IMG/VR virus record: IMGVR_UViG_3300010885_060344
Location: 1 to 36,630 of that record
DNA: 36,630 nt
Direction: 5' to 3' (one strand)
Origin: a virus
Shown here: piece by piece, positions 452 through 17,067 of the stretch
How the letters are laid out: each line of letters opens with the position of its first letter
Numbering within the stretch: position 1 is the first letter of the stretch
Translations under genes and position numbers: made by a program
Notes under the pieces: model-generated
Databases searched by the model: none
The model's input: the letters and a program-made list of their open reading frames with translations, nothing else
Told to the model about the DNA's origin: nothing

Positions 452-528
452 TGGTGCCCCAGGAGAGACTCGAACTCTCAAAATTTGGCTTCTAAGACCA
501 ACACGTATACCAATTCCGTCACCGGGGC
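452..528 (-). tRNA. tRNA-Leu (anticodon TAG) with a short variable loop
   Basis: The anticodon stem TTGGT/GCCAA encloses CTTAGAA, reading TAG (Leu CUA). The acceptor GCCCCGG/CTGGGGC pairs fully and CCA is encoded. The D arm resembles bacterial Leu tRNAs, but the variable loop is only about 5 nt (ATTTT) where bacterial Leu tRNAs carry a long class II arm. Total length is 77 nt. The structure is otherwise intact. Confidence 0.85.
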
Positions 529-531
529 ATT

Positions 532-684
532 ACCATTTGTTTAGTGCTATCGTGCCAATTTGTCAACAATGTAGCTAGCACTGACAAGCGAGTAGCAGTT
601 ATATCAGACAGTTTCGGTCGCACCCTTACTGTCGCGTAGTCTATGCGTCCATAGACGATACCTTGATAGCACTAAACAAATGGT
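532..684 (-). ncRNA. candidate structured RNA closed by a 20-bp inverted repeat
   Basis: A perfect 20-bp inverted repeat (532-551 with 665-684) encloses three further hairpins: 560-565/582-587 (TTGTCA/TGACAA), 607-612/628-633 (GACAGT/ACTGTC, with an inner GGT/ACC) and 639-645/650-656 (GTCTATG/CATAGAC, 4-nt loop). The layout is a multi-branched RNA of about 153 nt with no coding sequence. It lies between tRNA-Leu and tRNA-Glu and would be made from the array transcript or from the promoter at 959-987. T4 has two stable RNAs of unknown function (C and D) at its tRNA cluster, a positional parallel only. The strand is inferred from the neighbours. Confidence 0.5.
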
Positions 685-862
685 GTAGGCTACGTTTTTC
701 ATGTCGCCCCTACTTGAGTTTACAACCCTGTCGCCACCTTTACATAATTCCTATGCGTGGATCATCATACCAGATTCTGCTTACGTCTGCGCTATCGGTC
801 TTCTGGACACCGGATCTCTATCGTATAATCAAACGCTTACTTCACGTAGTAAGAACGGAAAT
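685..862 (-). ncRNA. non-coding stretch with several local hairpins
   Basis: This 178-nt stretch between the candidate RNA and tRNA-Glu has no convincing gene. Short hairpins are visible: 836-841/848-853 (CTTACT/AGTAAG), 685-689/709-713 (GTAGG/CCTAC) and a CGGT/ACCG pairing near 795-812. TGTCGC recurs at 702-707, 729-734 and, in the neighbouring element, 630-635. It may be part of the same RNA, a second stable RNA, or a precursor spacer. Low certainty. Confidence 0.25.
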
Positions 863-937
863 TGGTACACGGTAGGAGAATCGAACTCCTCTTATGCGGA
901 TGAAAACCGCATGTCCTAACCGATAGACGAACCGTGC
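863..937 (-). tRNA. tRNA-Glu (anticodon TTC)
   Basis: The anticodon stem TGCGG/CCGCA encloses TTTTCAT. The acceptor GCACGGT/ACCGTGT has one wobble pair, the T loop is TTCGATT and CCA is encoded. Confidence 0.93.
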
Positions 938-11471: not shown

Positions 11472-12458
11472 TTACGCCCAAATATCTTGCCAGTTACCTT
11501 TAAGTGCTCCCTTAGCATAGTCGGTAGCACGGTTCTCAAAGAAGTTAGTATGGGTGGGTGCATTAATCATTTCTTCTACCCAAGGTAATGGATTTCTTTT
11601 TACCTTATTAATACCTTTTAGTCCAAGACTAATTAGTCTCCTATCAGCAATATATCTAATGTACTGCTTAACTTCTGCACTAGTTAGACCTTCCATTTCG
11701 CCCATTGAGAAGGCTAGGTCGATAAACTTATCCTCTAACTGTACCATTTTTTCTGCAATGGTGTATATTCTAGACTTAAGATCATCATTCCATATCTCAT
11801 TATTTTCTTCAATGTATGTTCTAAATAATCTGATCATAGATTCAGCATGCTGAGTCTCATCAACAATTGACCAAGTAATAATCTGACCCATACCCTTCAT
11901 CTTTCCATGTCTAGGGAAGTTTAATAGCATAATAAAAGAGGAGAACAACTGCATCCCTTCAGTGAATGCACTGAACACGGCGATGTGGGTTGCAGTGTTC
12001 TCTTTTGTTGAGTTCTGCGCAGACAAGTTCATGACATAATCATGTTTGTCTTTCATCTCTTGATATTCTAAGAACTCATTATAAGTTGCTTCAGGTAGAC
12101 CTAGCGTTTCAATAAGATGAGAATAAGCAGCAATATGTAAGGCCTCTCTTGCAGCAAATCCCATCAACATCATCCTGATCTCAGGCTGAGGAAAATAAGG
12201 CAGGTAATTACGCACGTAACCCCCAGCCACATCAATGTCTCCTTGCGTAAAGAATCTAAAAATATGCGTAAGAAATGTTTTTTCATTTTTGGTTAGCTTT
12301 TTCTTCCAGTCCTTGACATCTTCAATCATTGGTACTTCTGTATGCAGCCAATGTGATTGTTCGTGCTTTAACCAGGCATCATATGCCCAAGGATAGTTAA
12401 ATGGTTTGAACGAGGTACGATCATCCGTCAGTTTTAGTTCTAATTTTTTGGCGCTCAA
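11472..12458 (-). CDS. nrdB: ribonucleotide reductase class Ia small subunit
   Basis: This 328-aa subunit houses the diiron-tyrosyl radical. Iron ligands align with E. coli R2: D74, E105, H108, then E167, E201 and H204. The radical tyrosine is Y112, with EALHIAAY giving the right spacing. The start appears to be TTG (12456-12458) with an AGGG SD in the end of the preceding oxygenase gene; no ATG is available nearby. It is unusual in being separated from nrdA by an oxygenase gene. Confidence 0.95.
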   Translation of the reverse strand: MSAKKLELKLTDDRTSFKPFNYPWAYDAWLKHEQSHWLHTEVPMIEDVKDWKKKLTKNEKTFLTHIFRFFTQGDIDVAGGYVRNYLPYFPQPEIRMMLMGFAAREALHIAAYSHLIETLGLPEATYNEFLEYQEMKDKHDYVMNLSAQNSTKENTATHIAVFSAFTEGMQLFSSFIMLLNFPRHGKMKGMGQIITWSIVDETQHAESMIRLFRTYIEENNEIWNDDLKSRIYTIAEKMVQLEDKFIDLAFSMGEMEGLTSAEVKQYIRYIADRRLISLGLKGINKVKRNPLPWVEEMINAPTHTNFFENRATDYAKGALKGNWQDIWA

Positions 12459-12462
12459 TGTC

Positions 12463-13254
12463 TTATCCCTGTATCTGCTTGTTTACGTTACGTTGTACTT
12501 TATACTTGAAGTACGGCATATACACCGTCTTTGCAATATTGTACAATACTTTTTTTGTTAGAGTAAGTTTGGTCCCCTCTATTTGCTGCCTATACTCTTC
12601 AGCTTGTTTAATAAAGTGCTTAATATTATAGTTGTATTTAAAATTTTTAGTTATACCGTTGGTATCATATGCATCACAAATAATATGATACCTATCTATT
12701 TTAGATGTATTTCGTATTTGATGCAAGTTGTTGACCCATAGCATGTAAGCTGAGCCGTCAGCTGGCATATGAAACTCACCATGCTCCGTCCAATGTATAC
12801 ACTCTTCATTAGTTATAATAGGTATGTGTATTCTTGCAAGGTACTGATCGGCGGGAGCGTCACGATGTATAATACTCTTAGAGTTAGCTTTTAGAACTGT
12901 CAACCTCATTCTACGTGGATAGAAGCCAAGCTCTGTTAGTTGATCAACAAGCTTACTGTAGGGGCCAACACAAGCCTGAGTCTTATTAACATGTTCAAAA
13001 GGTAGAGATAGGTTAAGAAACTTAGCTAGAGGGTAATTATAGGTGCCGTCTTTATTTTGACATAACTCGTATCCCATTTGAAACCCATCTCTCCAATCCC
13101 CAGTCCTACTTTGTAAATTCCATCCACCGAAATTACTATAACCAAATTCTGAACCTTGGAATACAGGAGGTCCAAGTTTTGTTATGTGGTTATGAAGACT
13201 GTTACTAAAAAGCTCAACATTTGCCTTGAAGGGCAATTTTTCCATAGCTTGCAT
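12463..13254 (-). CDS. 2OG-Fe(II) oxygenase, aspartyl/asparaginyl hydroxylase-like
   Basis: This 263-aa protein probably is a non-haem iron oxygenase. IIHRDAP (about residue 128) gives the HxD pair, RIHIPII follows about 12 residues later as in aspartyl/asparaginyl beta-hydroxylases, and LHQIRNTSKIDRYHI (about 180-194) supplies the distal His and the Arg that binds 2-oxoglutarate. The C-terminal ~50 residues are Lys/Tyr-rich. It sits between nrdA and nrdB with short spacing on both sides. The substrate is unknown: protein, nucleotide or a tRNA/DNA modification are all possible. Confidence 0.72.
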   Translation of the reverse strand: MQAMEKLPFKANVELFSNSLHNHITKLGPPVFQGSEFGYSNFGGWNLQSRTGDWRDGFQMGYELCQNKDGTYNYPLAKFLNLSLPFEHVNKTQACVGPYSKLVDQLTELGFYPRRMRLTVLKANSKSIIHRDAPADQYLARIHIPIITNEECIHWTEHGEFHMPADGSAYMLWVNNLHQIRNTSKIDRYHIICDAYDTNGITKNFKYNYNIKHFIKQAEEYRQQIEGTKLTLTKKVLYNIAKTVYMPYFKYKVQRNVNKQIQG

Positions 13255-13257
13255 TGA

Positions 13258-15057
13258 CTACCCCTCGCAGGCAAGACATACTTCATCTGATTGTGCGAGT
13301 TGTTTTAAGTCAATTTCTTCAATAACTTGACGTTCAATGCGTCTGGCTACTTTATCAGCCTTTCCTATCTTTTCACTTCTGCAATAATAAAGAGTTTTCA
13401 ATCCTTGTTTCCAAGCTTGAAAATGTACTGCGTGTAAGTACTTAATATTTACATCAGGTCTAAAGAATAGGTTGAGTGACTGGGCTTGATCGATATACTC
13501 TTGCCTGTCTGCCGCATGCTGTACAAGCCATCGCTGGTCGATTTCCATAGATGTTTTAAACACATCTCTTTCCCAATCACCTAGCCATTCTAAATGTTGG
13601 ACCGACCCGTCGTTGGCTATAATACTAGACCACACTTCATCAGCCCAACCCGCCGGATGAATCTCAGCATGTTTCTGTATGATTCTATCTAACCATTTAT
13701 TTTTAGCTAACGAAGAGCCCGATAAAGTATCCTGCCTATAAGCATTGGCACGAAAAGGTTCAATAGAAGGACTAGTGTTGCCCATAATAATGGAAGAAGA
13801 AGCATTGGGAGCAATAGCCATAAGATGACTAAAGCGACGGCCAGTACCTTCTGCATCAGGGGCTTCGCCTCGTAAAGTACCCAGCTCCAGATTAGCTTCA
13901 TCCAACTTACTCCTTATGTGATTAAATATTTGTTTATTACGTCCTACAGCCAGTGCCGATTCCCACGGTAAGCTATTTTTTTGCAAATAGGCGTGCCATC
14001 CAAGAGCGCCGATACCGATGCTTCTTTCACGCATGGCTGAGAATTTTGCACGTTGAATGGTGTCAGGCGCATTAGAAATAAAATACTGAAGAACATTATC
14101 AAGCATTTCTGCAATATCACGAAGGAAATTAGGATCTTTTCTCCATTCATCATAGTACTCCAAATTAACAGATGACAGGCAACAAACAGCAGTACGAGTC
14201 TTATCTGTAGCTAAAGTAATTTCAGAACATAGATTAGACTGCTTAATAGATAGACCAAGTTTCTTTTGAAAGTCTGGTAGTGCTTTATTAGATGCATCAA
14301 TAAAATGAATGTAAGGTTCCCCTGTTTGCATTCTTAGTTCTAGGATACGTTGCCATAGTTCTTTAGCTGAAATAGTATCTCTTACTTGCTTGTCGTGAGG
14401 GTCAATCAACTCCCATGTATCATCAATGTCTGGATCAACCATAGCCTGTTCAATAAGGTGCATGAACTTATCGGTAATATTAATTCCGTGATGTAAATTC
14501 AAGGCTCTCATATTAGGATCACCGGTAGGTTTTCTCATTTCTAAAAATATGAGTACATCGGGGTGACTAATATCCAAGTATGCAGCATATGAACCCCGGC
14601 GTGTACGACCTTGTCTATACGCAAGTGAGGATGCATCATAAGTGCGAAGGTGAGGCATAATTCCTGTAGACTTATCATCAGCTGAACGAATACCAATCCC
14701 GATCCCTATTCCGCCCCCTAGCATGGAAAGCCAATTTACTTCGGAAAGGGTTTCAACTAATCCTTCTGCAGAATCATCCAGAAAAGGCAAGAAACAAGAG
14801 ATAGGGAGACCACGAGCGGATCGCCCAAATGAAAGTATAGGAGTAGAGTAGCTAAGCCAATGCTTAGAGCTATAGTCGTAGAGTCGCTGGGCGTGCTCGG
14901 GGTTTGTCGAGAAGGTTTTTGATACATATGCAAATCTTTCTTGAGGTGATTGTTCGTCATCCCTCATGTAACTTTCTTTTAGTCGTTTCAGGCCTAGTTC
15001 ATCAAACAAATTATCGCGCGAAAAATCTACCCTGACACCGTGAACGACATCTTTCAT
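13258..15057 (-). CDS. nrdA: ribonucleotide reductase class Ia large subunit, no ATP cone
   Basis: This 599-aa subunit is shorter than cellular NrdA (~750) because the N-terminal ATP-cone activity-control domain is missing, so it should resist dATP shut-off. Active-site residues are visible: C88 (PISC), N275-x-C277-x-E279 (SNLCSEI), the second redox Cys at 292/293, the radical-transfer pair Y557-Y558 and the C-terminal CLAC (594-597). It has SD GGAG. It is the first RNR gene in the transcript, followed by the oxygenase and nrdB. Confidence 0.95.
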   Translation of the reverse strand: MKDVVHGVRVDFSRDNLFDELGLKRLKESYMRDDEQSPQERFAYVSKTFSTNPEHAQRLYDYSSKHWLSYSTPILSFGRSARGLPISCFLPFLDDSAEGLVETLSEVNWLSMLGGGIGIGIGIRSADDKSTGIMPHLRTYDASSLAYRQGRTRRGSYAAYLDISHPDVLIFLEMRKPTGDPNMRALNLHHGINITDKFMHLIEQAMVDPDIDDTWELIDPHDKQVRDTISAKELWQRILELRMQTGEPYIHFIDASNKALPDFQKKLGLSIKQSNLCSEITLATDKTRTAVCCLSSVNLEYYDEWRKDPNFLRDIAEMLDNVLQYFISNAPDTIQRAKFSAMRERSIGIGALGWHAYLQKNSLPWESALAVGRNKQIFNHIRSKLDEANLELGTLRGEAPDAEGTGRRFSHLMAIAPNASSSIIMGNTSPSIEPFRANAYRQDTLSGSSLAKNKWLDRIIQKHAEIHPAGWADEVWSSIIANDGSVQHLEWLGDWERDVFKTSMEIDQRWLVQHAADRQEYIDQAQSLNLFFRPDVNIKYLHAVHFQAWKQGLKTLYYCRSEKIGKADKVARRIERQVIEEIDLKQLAQSDEVCLACEG

Positions 15058-15075
15058 ACTTACTCCTGGTTATTA

Positions 15076-15855
15076 TTATTTTTGAACGAACTCTCGTACT
15101 AAAGGAAATACTTTGGATATGACTTCAGCGCATGCTTTAGCAATTTCACAATGCTCTTTTTGGGTTCCGTTTGCGGAACGTAGTTGTATATAGTGTATCC
15201 AAGACCTCATTGTCCCATTGACGTACAAGCGACTAGTTGTGTTTCCTTCCGGTAAAACGCACCTGGCTTGCTCCTTGGCAATACCCTTTTCTACTGCCCA
15301 TGTGTAGGCATTTTTTGCCTCATCTATTACTCGTTTTTGCATCATTTCCCATTGGTAAGCTAAGACCCTGTGCTCATCATTACCGCTTGAATCTATCTCT
15401 ATACTAGCTTGTCTATTTTTTGTGTCCTGTAACCGGCATTCTCTAAGTACAAAATCGAGCTCTTGAGTAGGGTCAGCATATCGTTGGCTGAACTCTTGGA
15501 AGGAGAAGGAGCGGTGTCGGAGTAGTTGTCTGGCAATGTCTCTTGTGGTGGTAATTTCGAGGCACATTGAGACCATTTCCAATGGGGACCAATGTTGGTG
15601 CTGTATAAGGTATCGGATGAGTCGTTCCGAGGTTTCCTTATTGGATTGATTGGTTGGATTGGAGACACGGGCACAGAATGCGATGAGTTCGGCCATGTTC
15701 TCGACAAAGTATACGTCTGGTTGGGAGTAAGAGATAATTTGTACATTAAAGTCCTTCACCAATGCATCCTCGGTTGTTAGTTGATCGTAGTACTCATTTT
15801 TAAGCCATGCAGCTGCTTGCTTATCACCTTCAGTCATTATATTCATATTCTTCAT
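15076..15855 (-). CDS. thyX: flavin-dependent thymidylate synthase
   Basis: This 259-aa ThyX makes dTMP from dUMP with FAD and methylene-tetrahydrofolate. The signature RHRSFSFQEFSQRY (residues 113-126) fits RHRxxSxxxxSxR. The C-terminal RSANGTQKEHCEIA is the usual nucleotide-binding helix. Two starts are possible: 15855, or the ATG at 15835-15837, whose reading frame overlaps the upstream stop. Neither has a strong SD. It is placed between primase and RNR genes, completing the dNTP pathway with cd and nrdAB. Confidence 0.93.
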   Translation of the reverse strand: MKNMNIMTEGDKQAAAWLKNEYYDQLTTEDALVKDFNVQIISYSQPDVYFVENMAELIAFCARVSNPTNQSNKETSERLIRYLIQHQHWSPLEMVSMCLEITTTRDIARQLLRHRSFSFQEFSQRYADPTQELDFVLRECRLQDTKNRQASIEIDSSGNDEHRVLAYQWEMMQKRVIDEAKNAYTWAVEKGIAKEQARCVLPEGNTTSRLYVNGTMRSWIHYIQLRSANGTQKEHCEIAKACAEVISKVFPLVREFVQK

Positions 15856-16012
15856 TCTTGATATTTGATATATTTTTTTCTAAGCGTTTAATTTCCAATA
15901 CTGAATCAGCTTTACCTCTAATGAAGTCTGCTACGTCATCAATACTTTTGAAAAATTTAAACACCATGAATTTATCTAACAAATAGCATACTTTATACAA
16001 CGGGGTTTCCAT
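15830..16012 (-). CDS. small hypothetical protein
   Basis: This 60-aa protein is read from the ATG overlapping the primase stop (TAATG), which has a GGAG SD; a start four codons earlier is possible. It has a hydrophobic/aromatic front half and a Lys/Asn/Glu-rich end. No family is recognised. Confidence 0.65.
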   Translation of the reverse strand: METPLYKVCYLLDKFMVFKFFKSIDDVADFIRGKADSVLEIKRLEKNISNIKNEEYEYND

Positions 16013-17010
16013 TATTTTCTCCATGCGGTTAGTCTAAGCTTTGCCTCTAGACCTTTAAATGAGTTCTCGGCAATTACTTTCTTAACATCAATACCTTCTA
16101 GCACCATATCATTAATATCTTTCAGCTGAACAGATTGAGGCCATATAACAACATTATAGCCTTTCTCAATCATATACTCCACCTTCTTAACAATCTCTTT
16201 ATTTCTCGGTTCATTATCATAGCATACAGTTACATTTTTATTATCACCTAACACCTTGGTTAAATCTAAGTCTGACCCAGCCATGGCTAAACAATTATCT
16301 AAGAACAAAGAATCTATAGGACCTTCGGTCACGTAAACGTGTTTGCTTAGGTCTATAGTATCTAATCCAAATACTTTTGGAGCATCTGGATTGACCATTA
16401 TAGTAATATATCTTAACCCGTCTTTACGGAATGATCTACCTTGAAACCCATACATCTTTTCTTCTTTATCTAAGAAAGGTATAATGAGTCTTGGTTCGTC
16501 ATCCTCTGTATTAAACTTCTCCGGAATTATTGTATTAACCCAGCTTTTAAATTTAGGGCAATAGAATAACTTATAGTGTGTCTTAGGGGGTATTTTTCTT
16601 TTGTCTACGTACTTCTTAGCCGGATGATCCCACTTCAATTGACTGATTTTTTTCAATTGAGATAAGGGGGATTCAATGCGGTATAGAGGAGTATGTATCT
16701 TGGTGATGTCCACTTGAGATACCGGGGTCTCTCTGGTCTTCTCCAGGAAATTCTCTTGTACGTACTCCTTATAGAGACCTTGATCAAGATACTTAATAAA
16801 GTTACCTAACTGCATCGATGCATGGCAGTTATGGCAATAAAATATGATCTTGTCTTGCTTCTCGAGCAAGTAGCCACGCGTCTTGTATTTGTTCTTTTGG
16901 GAGTCACCGCAGATAGGACATCTGAAGGTGTACGCTTTTGGATTCTTACGGGAGAACCGTTCCAATCGCGAAGACAATAACCCCACATACTTATGATCAA
17001 TAAAAAGCAT
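16012..17010 (-). CDS. 61: DNA primase, T4 gp61-like
   Basis: This 332-aa primase makes RNA primers at the replication fork. An N-terminal zinc finger (CPICGDS, then CHNC about 30 residues later) is followed by a TOPRIM domain with VTEGPIDSLF and VCYDNEPRNKE. The layout and length fit T4 gp61 rather than a full DnaG. The ATG at 17008-17010 is chosen because the earlier in-frame TTG at 17034 lies essentially at the transcription start of the promoter at 17039. It is followed without gap by the 60-aa gene and thyX. Confidence 0.9.
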   Translation of the reverse strand: MLFIDHKYVGLLSSRLERFSRKNPKAYTFRCPICGDSQKNKYKTRGYLLEKQDKIIFYCHNCHASMQLGNFIKYLDQGLYKEYVQENFLEKTRETPVSQVDITKIHTPLYRIESPLSQLKKISQLKWDHPAKKYVDKRKIPPKTHYKLFYCPKFKSWVNTIIPEKFNTEDDEPRLIIPFLDKEEKMYGFQGRSFRKDGLRYITIMVNPDAPKVFGLDTIDLSKHVYVTEGPIDSLFLDNCLAMAGSDLDLTKVLGDNKNVTVCYDNEPRNKEIVKKVEYMIEKGYNVVIWPQSVQLKDINDMVLEGIDVKKVIAENSFKGLEAKLRLTAWRK

Positions 17011-17025
17011 TATATTATTCCATGA

Positions 17026-17067
17026 ACCCGACAATACGATTATATATTAGTCGGGTCTGGAAATCAA
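17026..17067 (-). promoter_or_regulatory. promoter for primase with an inverted repeat over the -10 box
   Basis: TTGATT (17062-17067), 17 nt and TATAAT (17039-17044) lie on the minus strand. A 7-bp inverted repeat ACCCGAC/GTCGGGT (17026-17032 with 17050-17056, 17-nt spacer) flanks the -10 box. This is the position expected of an operator, and the transcribed arm would also lie at the mRNA 5' end. The promoter call is firm; the operator is inference. Confidence 0.7.

Follow-up and report, generated by a model that had tools for sequence, protein, structure and literature searches.

The tRNA array and element A

The analysed stretch of DNA (the window) is a 36.6-kb IMG/VR virus record with 14 tRNA genes in its first 1.7 kb, all of them on the minus strand. 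Between tRNA-Leu(UAG) (452-528, minus strand) and tRNA-Glu(UUC) (863-937, minus strand) lie 334 bases devoid of tRNA genes. They comprise element A (532-684, minus strand), a structured RNA of 153 nt including its full closing helix P1, and, directly upstream of it in the transcript, element B (685-862, minus strand), an apparently structured RNA of 178 bases separable from A. tRNA-Leu(UAG), the next gene downstream of element A, starts 3 nt past P1, while tRNA-Glu(UUC), here upstream of element B, is situated directly upstream of element A in many relatives.

The preliminary description of this region, made from the letters of the window, reported a perfect 20-bp inverted repeat closing a 113-nt interior, and such a repeat is indeed present, with its arms at 532-551 and 665-684. 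It is the sole exact inverted repeat of at least 16 bp within 300 nt in the whole window. The predicted folding energy of 532-684 is -58.9 kcal/mol for the plus and -59.3 kcal/mol for the minus strand (z = -7.3 and -6.5, respectively), and none of 200 shuffled sequences folds equally well, in agreement with the earlier opinion that the design is unlikely to be due to chance. The absence of coding potential was also borne out: neither an AUG nor a reading frame is conserved among the homologues, whose sole recurrent AUG, in CUAUGCGG, is missing from the window copy (CUACGCG), and element A was therefore ruled out as a coding sequence. All the tRNA genes are on the minus strand and, read on that strand, the homologues show 123 G-U cells versus 19 A-C cells, an excess which would appear as A-C mismatches on the other strand; element A is thus a minus-strand RNA.

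Secondary structure

The closing helix P1 is formed by the 5' arm ACCAUUUGUUUAGUGCUAUC (665-684, minus strand) and the 3' arm GAUAGCACUAAACAAAUGGU (532-551, minus strand), the UGGU end of the latter pairing with ACCA at the 5' end. The arms form an exact inverted repeat in the window, and of 73 distinct homologues nearly all have a P1 of 17-24 bp. P1 is joined to P2 by the conserved strand AAGGUAUC (657-664, minus strand), which was partly fixed by the search motif described below; it is kept in six members recovered without that motif, in one of them without the C. The P2 hairpin (639-656, minus strand; GUCUAUG-GACG-CAUAGAC) has 7 bp and a GACG loop, with both-sided changes in five of the seven pairs, and the P3 hairpin (607-633, minus strand; GACAGU/ACUGUC with inner GG/CC) shows such changes in seven of its eight pairs. 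The P3 loop provides the first strand of a pseudoknot, GCGA (618-621, minus strand), which pairs with UCGC (588-591, minus strand) located 5' of P5, both strands being supported by covariation. The P5 hairpin (560-587, minus strand; UUGUCA/UGACAA) carries an apical CUAGCUA loop, and all three pairs tested in it change on both sides. The short helix P4, formed by UGC (595-597, minus strand) and its partner GCA (553-555, minus strand), is less well supported, with 76% of cells paired and one subgroup of the aligned members offset by one column.

The three interior hairpins of 6-7 bp described previously correspond to P2 (7 bp), P3 (6 bp with the inner 2 bp), and P5 (6 bp), all with compensatory changes in the homologues. 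The architecture proposed earlier was thus right as to the arms and hairpins, but the pseudoknot (618-621 with 588-591) and P4 had been overlooked.

The element A family

The seed loci were found by searching with one arm of the repeat and with a 168-aa protein encoded beside the array (2011-2517), which matches no PHROG and has relatives (38-58% identity) in seven IMG/VR contigs. Three loci (L003, L004, and L006) carry element A in differently arranged tRNA arrays; an exact arm match in L005 lies within a protein gene and was discarded as a chance hit. The motif GTATCG...GACG...ACTAYG, comprising P2 and its flanks and taken from the seed loci, was found in 108 IMG/VR stretches. The same motif matched five times in 257 Gb of contigs from bacteria and archaea; none of the five has the P2 pairing or any other part of the core, and the covariance model found nothing in them, indicating that the viral matches are not due to chance. 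No true element A match was obtained among 84,980 bacterial and archaeal genomes. Covariance model R1 recovered 109 sequences in the fetched loci, nearly all within tRNA arrays, and it also matches nine further loci gathered via element B, from which six distinct sequences were aligned. Among the 82 distinct viral cores that could be checked, a blind search finds the long closing helix in nearly all, its letters being very varied. The IMG/VR records are fragments, and the carriers of element A are uncultivated.

A search of Rfam 15, proposed in the preliminary description, was carried out and identified no known family: element A has no match even at E <= 10 on the 334-base slice 529-862, in which the lone line (SNORD49, E 7.2) falls inside element B and was taken as chance. 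Neither did Rfam 15 match anything in L024, and on 14 loci it gave tRNA and tmRNA matches only. No match was found by blastn with ten diverse element A members against 50,697 phage records, and a BLAST search of cultured phages gave nothing meaningful. R1 has no match in the cultured T4-superfamily phages T4, DLP_6, phiM12, and S-RIM32 or in the jumbo phage XacN1, so a phage with a tRNA array does not in general require element A. No description of this RNA was found in the open-access literature.

Covariation

In the alignment of 49 members, 97.0% of the 1,811 base-pair cells are standard pairs, a value that falls to 37-40% when the 3' partners are slid as a control. Double-sided changes are seen in 30 of the 37 pairs, and the covariation score is 0.514 versus 0.170 for shuffled sequences, i.e., the compensatory changes go beyond both the shuffled and the slid controls. 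The preliminary description had let its reading depend on such substitutions, and it passes this test strongly: of the 12 inner P1 pairs examined 11 show them, as do 30 of the 37 pairs overall. P1 to P3 and the base of P5 are also recovered independently by RNAalifold; of its 32 pairs, 26 are compensated. The pseudoknot occurs in the 49 members as GCGA/UCGC (36), GCCG/CGGC (11), and GCGU/ACGC (1), with one member, L089, not matching it in that alignment; in distant members it takes the forms GCAU/AUGC, GCCAU/AUGGC, GCUUU/AAAGC, and GCUG/CAGC. Many unpaired bases of the core are conserved as well, those in alignment columns 20-46 being partly imposed by the search motif and hence by the choice of hits. 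The fold is maintained in the six members reached via element B, independently of that motif. Since base pairs change in matched pairs across more than 100 virus fragments, the shape of element A is under selection, and on this comparative evidence element A almost certainly represents a real structured RNA family.

Genomic context and carriers

At least one tRNA or tmRNA gene accompanies element A in 102 of 104 loci, and the nearest tRNA or tmRNA genes are invariably on its strand (190 of 190). The commonest upstream neighbour is tRNA-Glu, while the downstream one is variable (tRNA-Leu, -Tyr, -Lys, -Cys, -Asp, -Asn, -Met, or protein genes). The 12 large records (66-355 kb) have exactly one element A each, and never more than one confident copy was seen in the fetched loci, whose arrays reach about 27 tRNAs. 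In one record a second, partial match lies at the opposite end, consistent with a terminal overlap.

The T4-type capsid protein gp23 is encoded in 10 of 18 large records bearing A or B, and the RNase H of the window is nearest to that of T4-superfamily phages (about 47-49% identity to T4-like phages). The arrays of several element A carriers also contain permuted two-piece tmRNA genes (L015, 2004-2390; L018, 486-845; L074, 2128-2515; L080, 9579-9995; L096, 1654-2049; L145, 6265-6783), with the tags ANDSQFALAA, ANDERFALAA, ANDEQFALAA, and ANDEKFLMAA. Tags such as ANDSQFALAA and ANDERFALAA point to betaproteobacteria as the probable hosts.

P1 and the CCA end of the upstream tRNA

From position 2 to position 17 of P1, 97-100% of the 73 distinct members are paired, and pairing reaches the background level past 20-24 bp. 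In 36 loci with a tRNA end no more than 13 nt away, P1 extends through the CCA of this tRNA (31-34 of 36 per position) and in 29 of them pairs the discriminator base too, in A-U, U-A, G-C, and G-U forms, to dwindle into the acceptor stem of the adjacent upstream tRNA. The part of P1 over the CCA and discriminator co-varies, e.g., U-CCA/UGG-A and G-CCA/UGG-C. In these 36 loci the CCA and the discriminator are thus shared by two RNA genes, that of the tRNA and that of element A. In the window it is element B that lies upstream of A in place of a tRNA, yet the ACCA is retained. With its 17-24 bp, P1 is of a length compatible with an RNase III processing stem.

Element B

Element B, of about 180 nt (e.g., L006, 9078-9254; L036, 12780-12963; and L162), is recognisable at about 40 places among the element A loci, and its motif is found in at least 120 virus stretches. 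It may adjoin A, lie at another place in the array, or occur in the absence of A, and the 524-kb record behind L162 contains two copies. Several compensated pairs are seen in its alignment. Apart from the chance line mentioned above, it has no Rfam match, and none was found in cultured phages. Six large records have A without a B match and ten have B without A; this separate occurrence rules out A and B being halves of one RNA and indicates that they are separate genes.

Comparison with known RNAs

Phage tRNA arrays have been studied for their tRNAs, and the function of RNAs C and D of T4 remains unexplained (PMC3014915, PMC9697503); both RNAs have been detected on Northern blots (PMC9697503). 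Element A resembles these two RNAs (rnaC, 139 nt, and rnaD, 119 nt; locus L013) in being small and non-coding and in lying at the tRNA cluster, on the tRNA strand, of a T4-superfamily phage. It differs from T4 RNA C in lacking the tRNA-like T-arm sequence found at the 3' end of the latter, and from both RNAs in its long closing helix and pseudoknot core. Moreover, R1 (the E-values of which, like those of R2, are rough) has no match in the whole of T4 at E <= 10, nor in L013. The proposal that element A is an analogue of T4 RNAs C and D stands as regards the placement, the T4-type RNase H of the window phage, and the T4-type capsid protein of several carriers, but element A is not their homologue. 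The compensatory changes lend good support to the broader claim that the tRNA transcript carries a non-coding RNA.

ROOL and GOLLD are structured RNAs of phages and prophages, with unknown functions, known from metagenomes and often found near tRNA islands (PMC12286853). GOLLD often exceeds 800 nt, as compared with about 150 nt in element A, and element A matches neither of their Rfam covariance models. Two-piece tmRNAs, like element A, are non-tRNA RNAs encoded in phage tRNA arrays, in several contigs near A. However, element A lacks both a tag frame and tRNA-like ends, and neither ARAGORN nor Rfam reports a tRNA or tmRNA across it; it was rejected as a tmRNA piece, the tmRNA being a separate gene in the same arrays. 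With Y RNA and YrlA it shares a long stem formed by both ends below a branched head. Rfam gives no YrlA match at element A (a lone weak YrlA line lies over the tRNAs at 213-327) and no Ro/TROVE protein was found in 17 carrier records, so a Y RNA identity was rejected too. The conserved GGUAUC of element A matches the 790 loop of 16S rRNA; six bases in 1.5 kb are expected to match by chance in about one case in three, and this match was discounted. Element A is homologous to none of the known RNAs in these comparisons, and we regard it as a new family within a known kind, the phage tRNA-array non-coding RNAs.

Proposed role

We propose, with a probability of roughly 0.6, that element A encodes a structured RNA which forms part of the tRNA transcript, is processed from it, and acts in trans during infection. 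It would be co-transcribed with the phage tRNAs, and P1, a perfect duplex of some two helical turns, would serve as a processing stem cut by host RNase III, while RNase P would free the tRNA immediately downstream. The released product would be compact and pseudoknotted, about 115-135 nt long, with the inner pairs of P1 closing it. Where a tRNA lies immediately upstream, P1 extends over its CCA end, so that the same cut would free that end too. By analogy with what is expected of T4 RNAs C and D, the mature RNA would most likely bind the ribosome or a protein of the host; neither a protein partner nor a target of element A was found. That a processed product acts in trans is probable. RNase III, suggested by the length of the helix, is a plausible nuclease to which we would give slightly less than even odds, and none of 17 carrier records has an RNase III gene, so the host enzyme must be assumed. 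It is possible, if doubtful, that element A serves as the decoy or scaffold of a host factor related to translation or to tRNA.

The relation of P1 to the upstream tRNA allows a reading in which element A acts solely in cis, P1 masking the CCA and separating neighbouring tRNAs. It is favoured by the exact run of P1, with compensating changes, into the CCA and discriminator of adjacent upstream tRNAs, and by the downstream tRNA often beginning a few nucleotides beyond P1. We nevertheless regard it as rather improbable, since arrays of up to about 27 tRNAs contain at most one copy, P1 is kept in many loci without a tRNA directly upstream, and a conserved pseudoknotted core of more than 100 nt would be superfluous for such a role. 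It is quite improbable that this core acts directly on tRNAs, either with the UGGN-NCCA pairing gating the maturation or charging of the upstream tRNA or with the mature core being a ribozyme or a sensor of tRNA 3' ends; if so, it would be a functional phage RNA of a new class. A ribozyme in general, self-cleaving or acting in trans on tRNA precursors through a catalytic pseudoknotted core, is very unlikely: the compact multi-helix core, the pseudoknot, the many conserved unpaired bases, and the position between RNAs that require cutting would suit it, but Rfam shows no catalytic RNA match, each array has a single copy, and the base conservation in columns 20-46 was partly set by the search motif.

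Neither do the neighbouring genes favour a riboswitch or leader regulating the next gene in cis. At a few loci, e.g., L003, an open reading frame does lie within tens of bases downstream, but the next gene is usually a tRNA, the identity of which changes from locus to locus (in the window, tRNA-Leu, 3 nt beyond P1), and this variability argues against cis-regulation, which is strongly disfavoured. A mobile or repeat element of the MITE type, with the repeat as a transposon end, could account for the 20-bp terminal inverted repeat and the varying position in the array. It is refuted by the covariation pattern: the arms co-vary among homologues instead of having fixed shared ends, and the G-U pairs mark selection at the RNA level; moreover, there is one copy per record, the orientation is always that of the tRNAs, and no flanking duplication was seen.

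Element A is a compact RNA with a firm secondary structure, known here from more than 100 sequences of a wide range of large uncultivated phages and accompanied by a further conserved RNA. The family supplies approximate ends, a fold, and testable point mutations (in the pseudoknot, and P1 swaps), making the role of non-tRNA RNAs in phage tRNA arrays approachable via a natural family rather than a single phage.

Other features of the window

A tRNA-like cloverleaf with a CAT anticodon, a 3' CCA, and a T-loop without the usual TTC is located at 115-187 on the minus strand; missed by both ARAGORN and Rfam, it may be a divergent tRNA-Met/Ile or a tRNA-like RNA. A strong GC-rich hairpin, CCCCAGG...CCTGGGG (1775-1810), is situated upstream of the tRNA array and is probably a terminator ahead of it; L006 has a similar region. 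The block at 11472-17034 is devoted to nucleotide metabolism and comprises the genes for the large and small subunits of ribonucleotide reductase and a ThyX-type thymidylate synthase; it also encodes a protein matching aspartyl/asparaginyl beta-hydroxylase.
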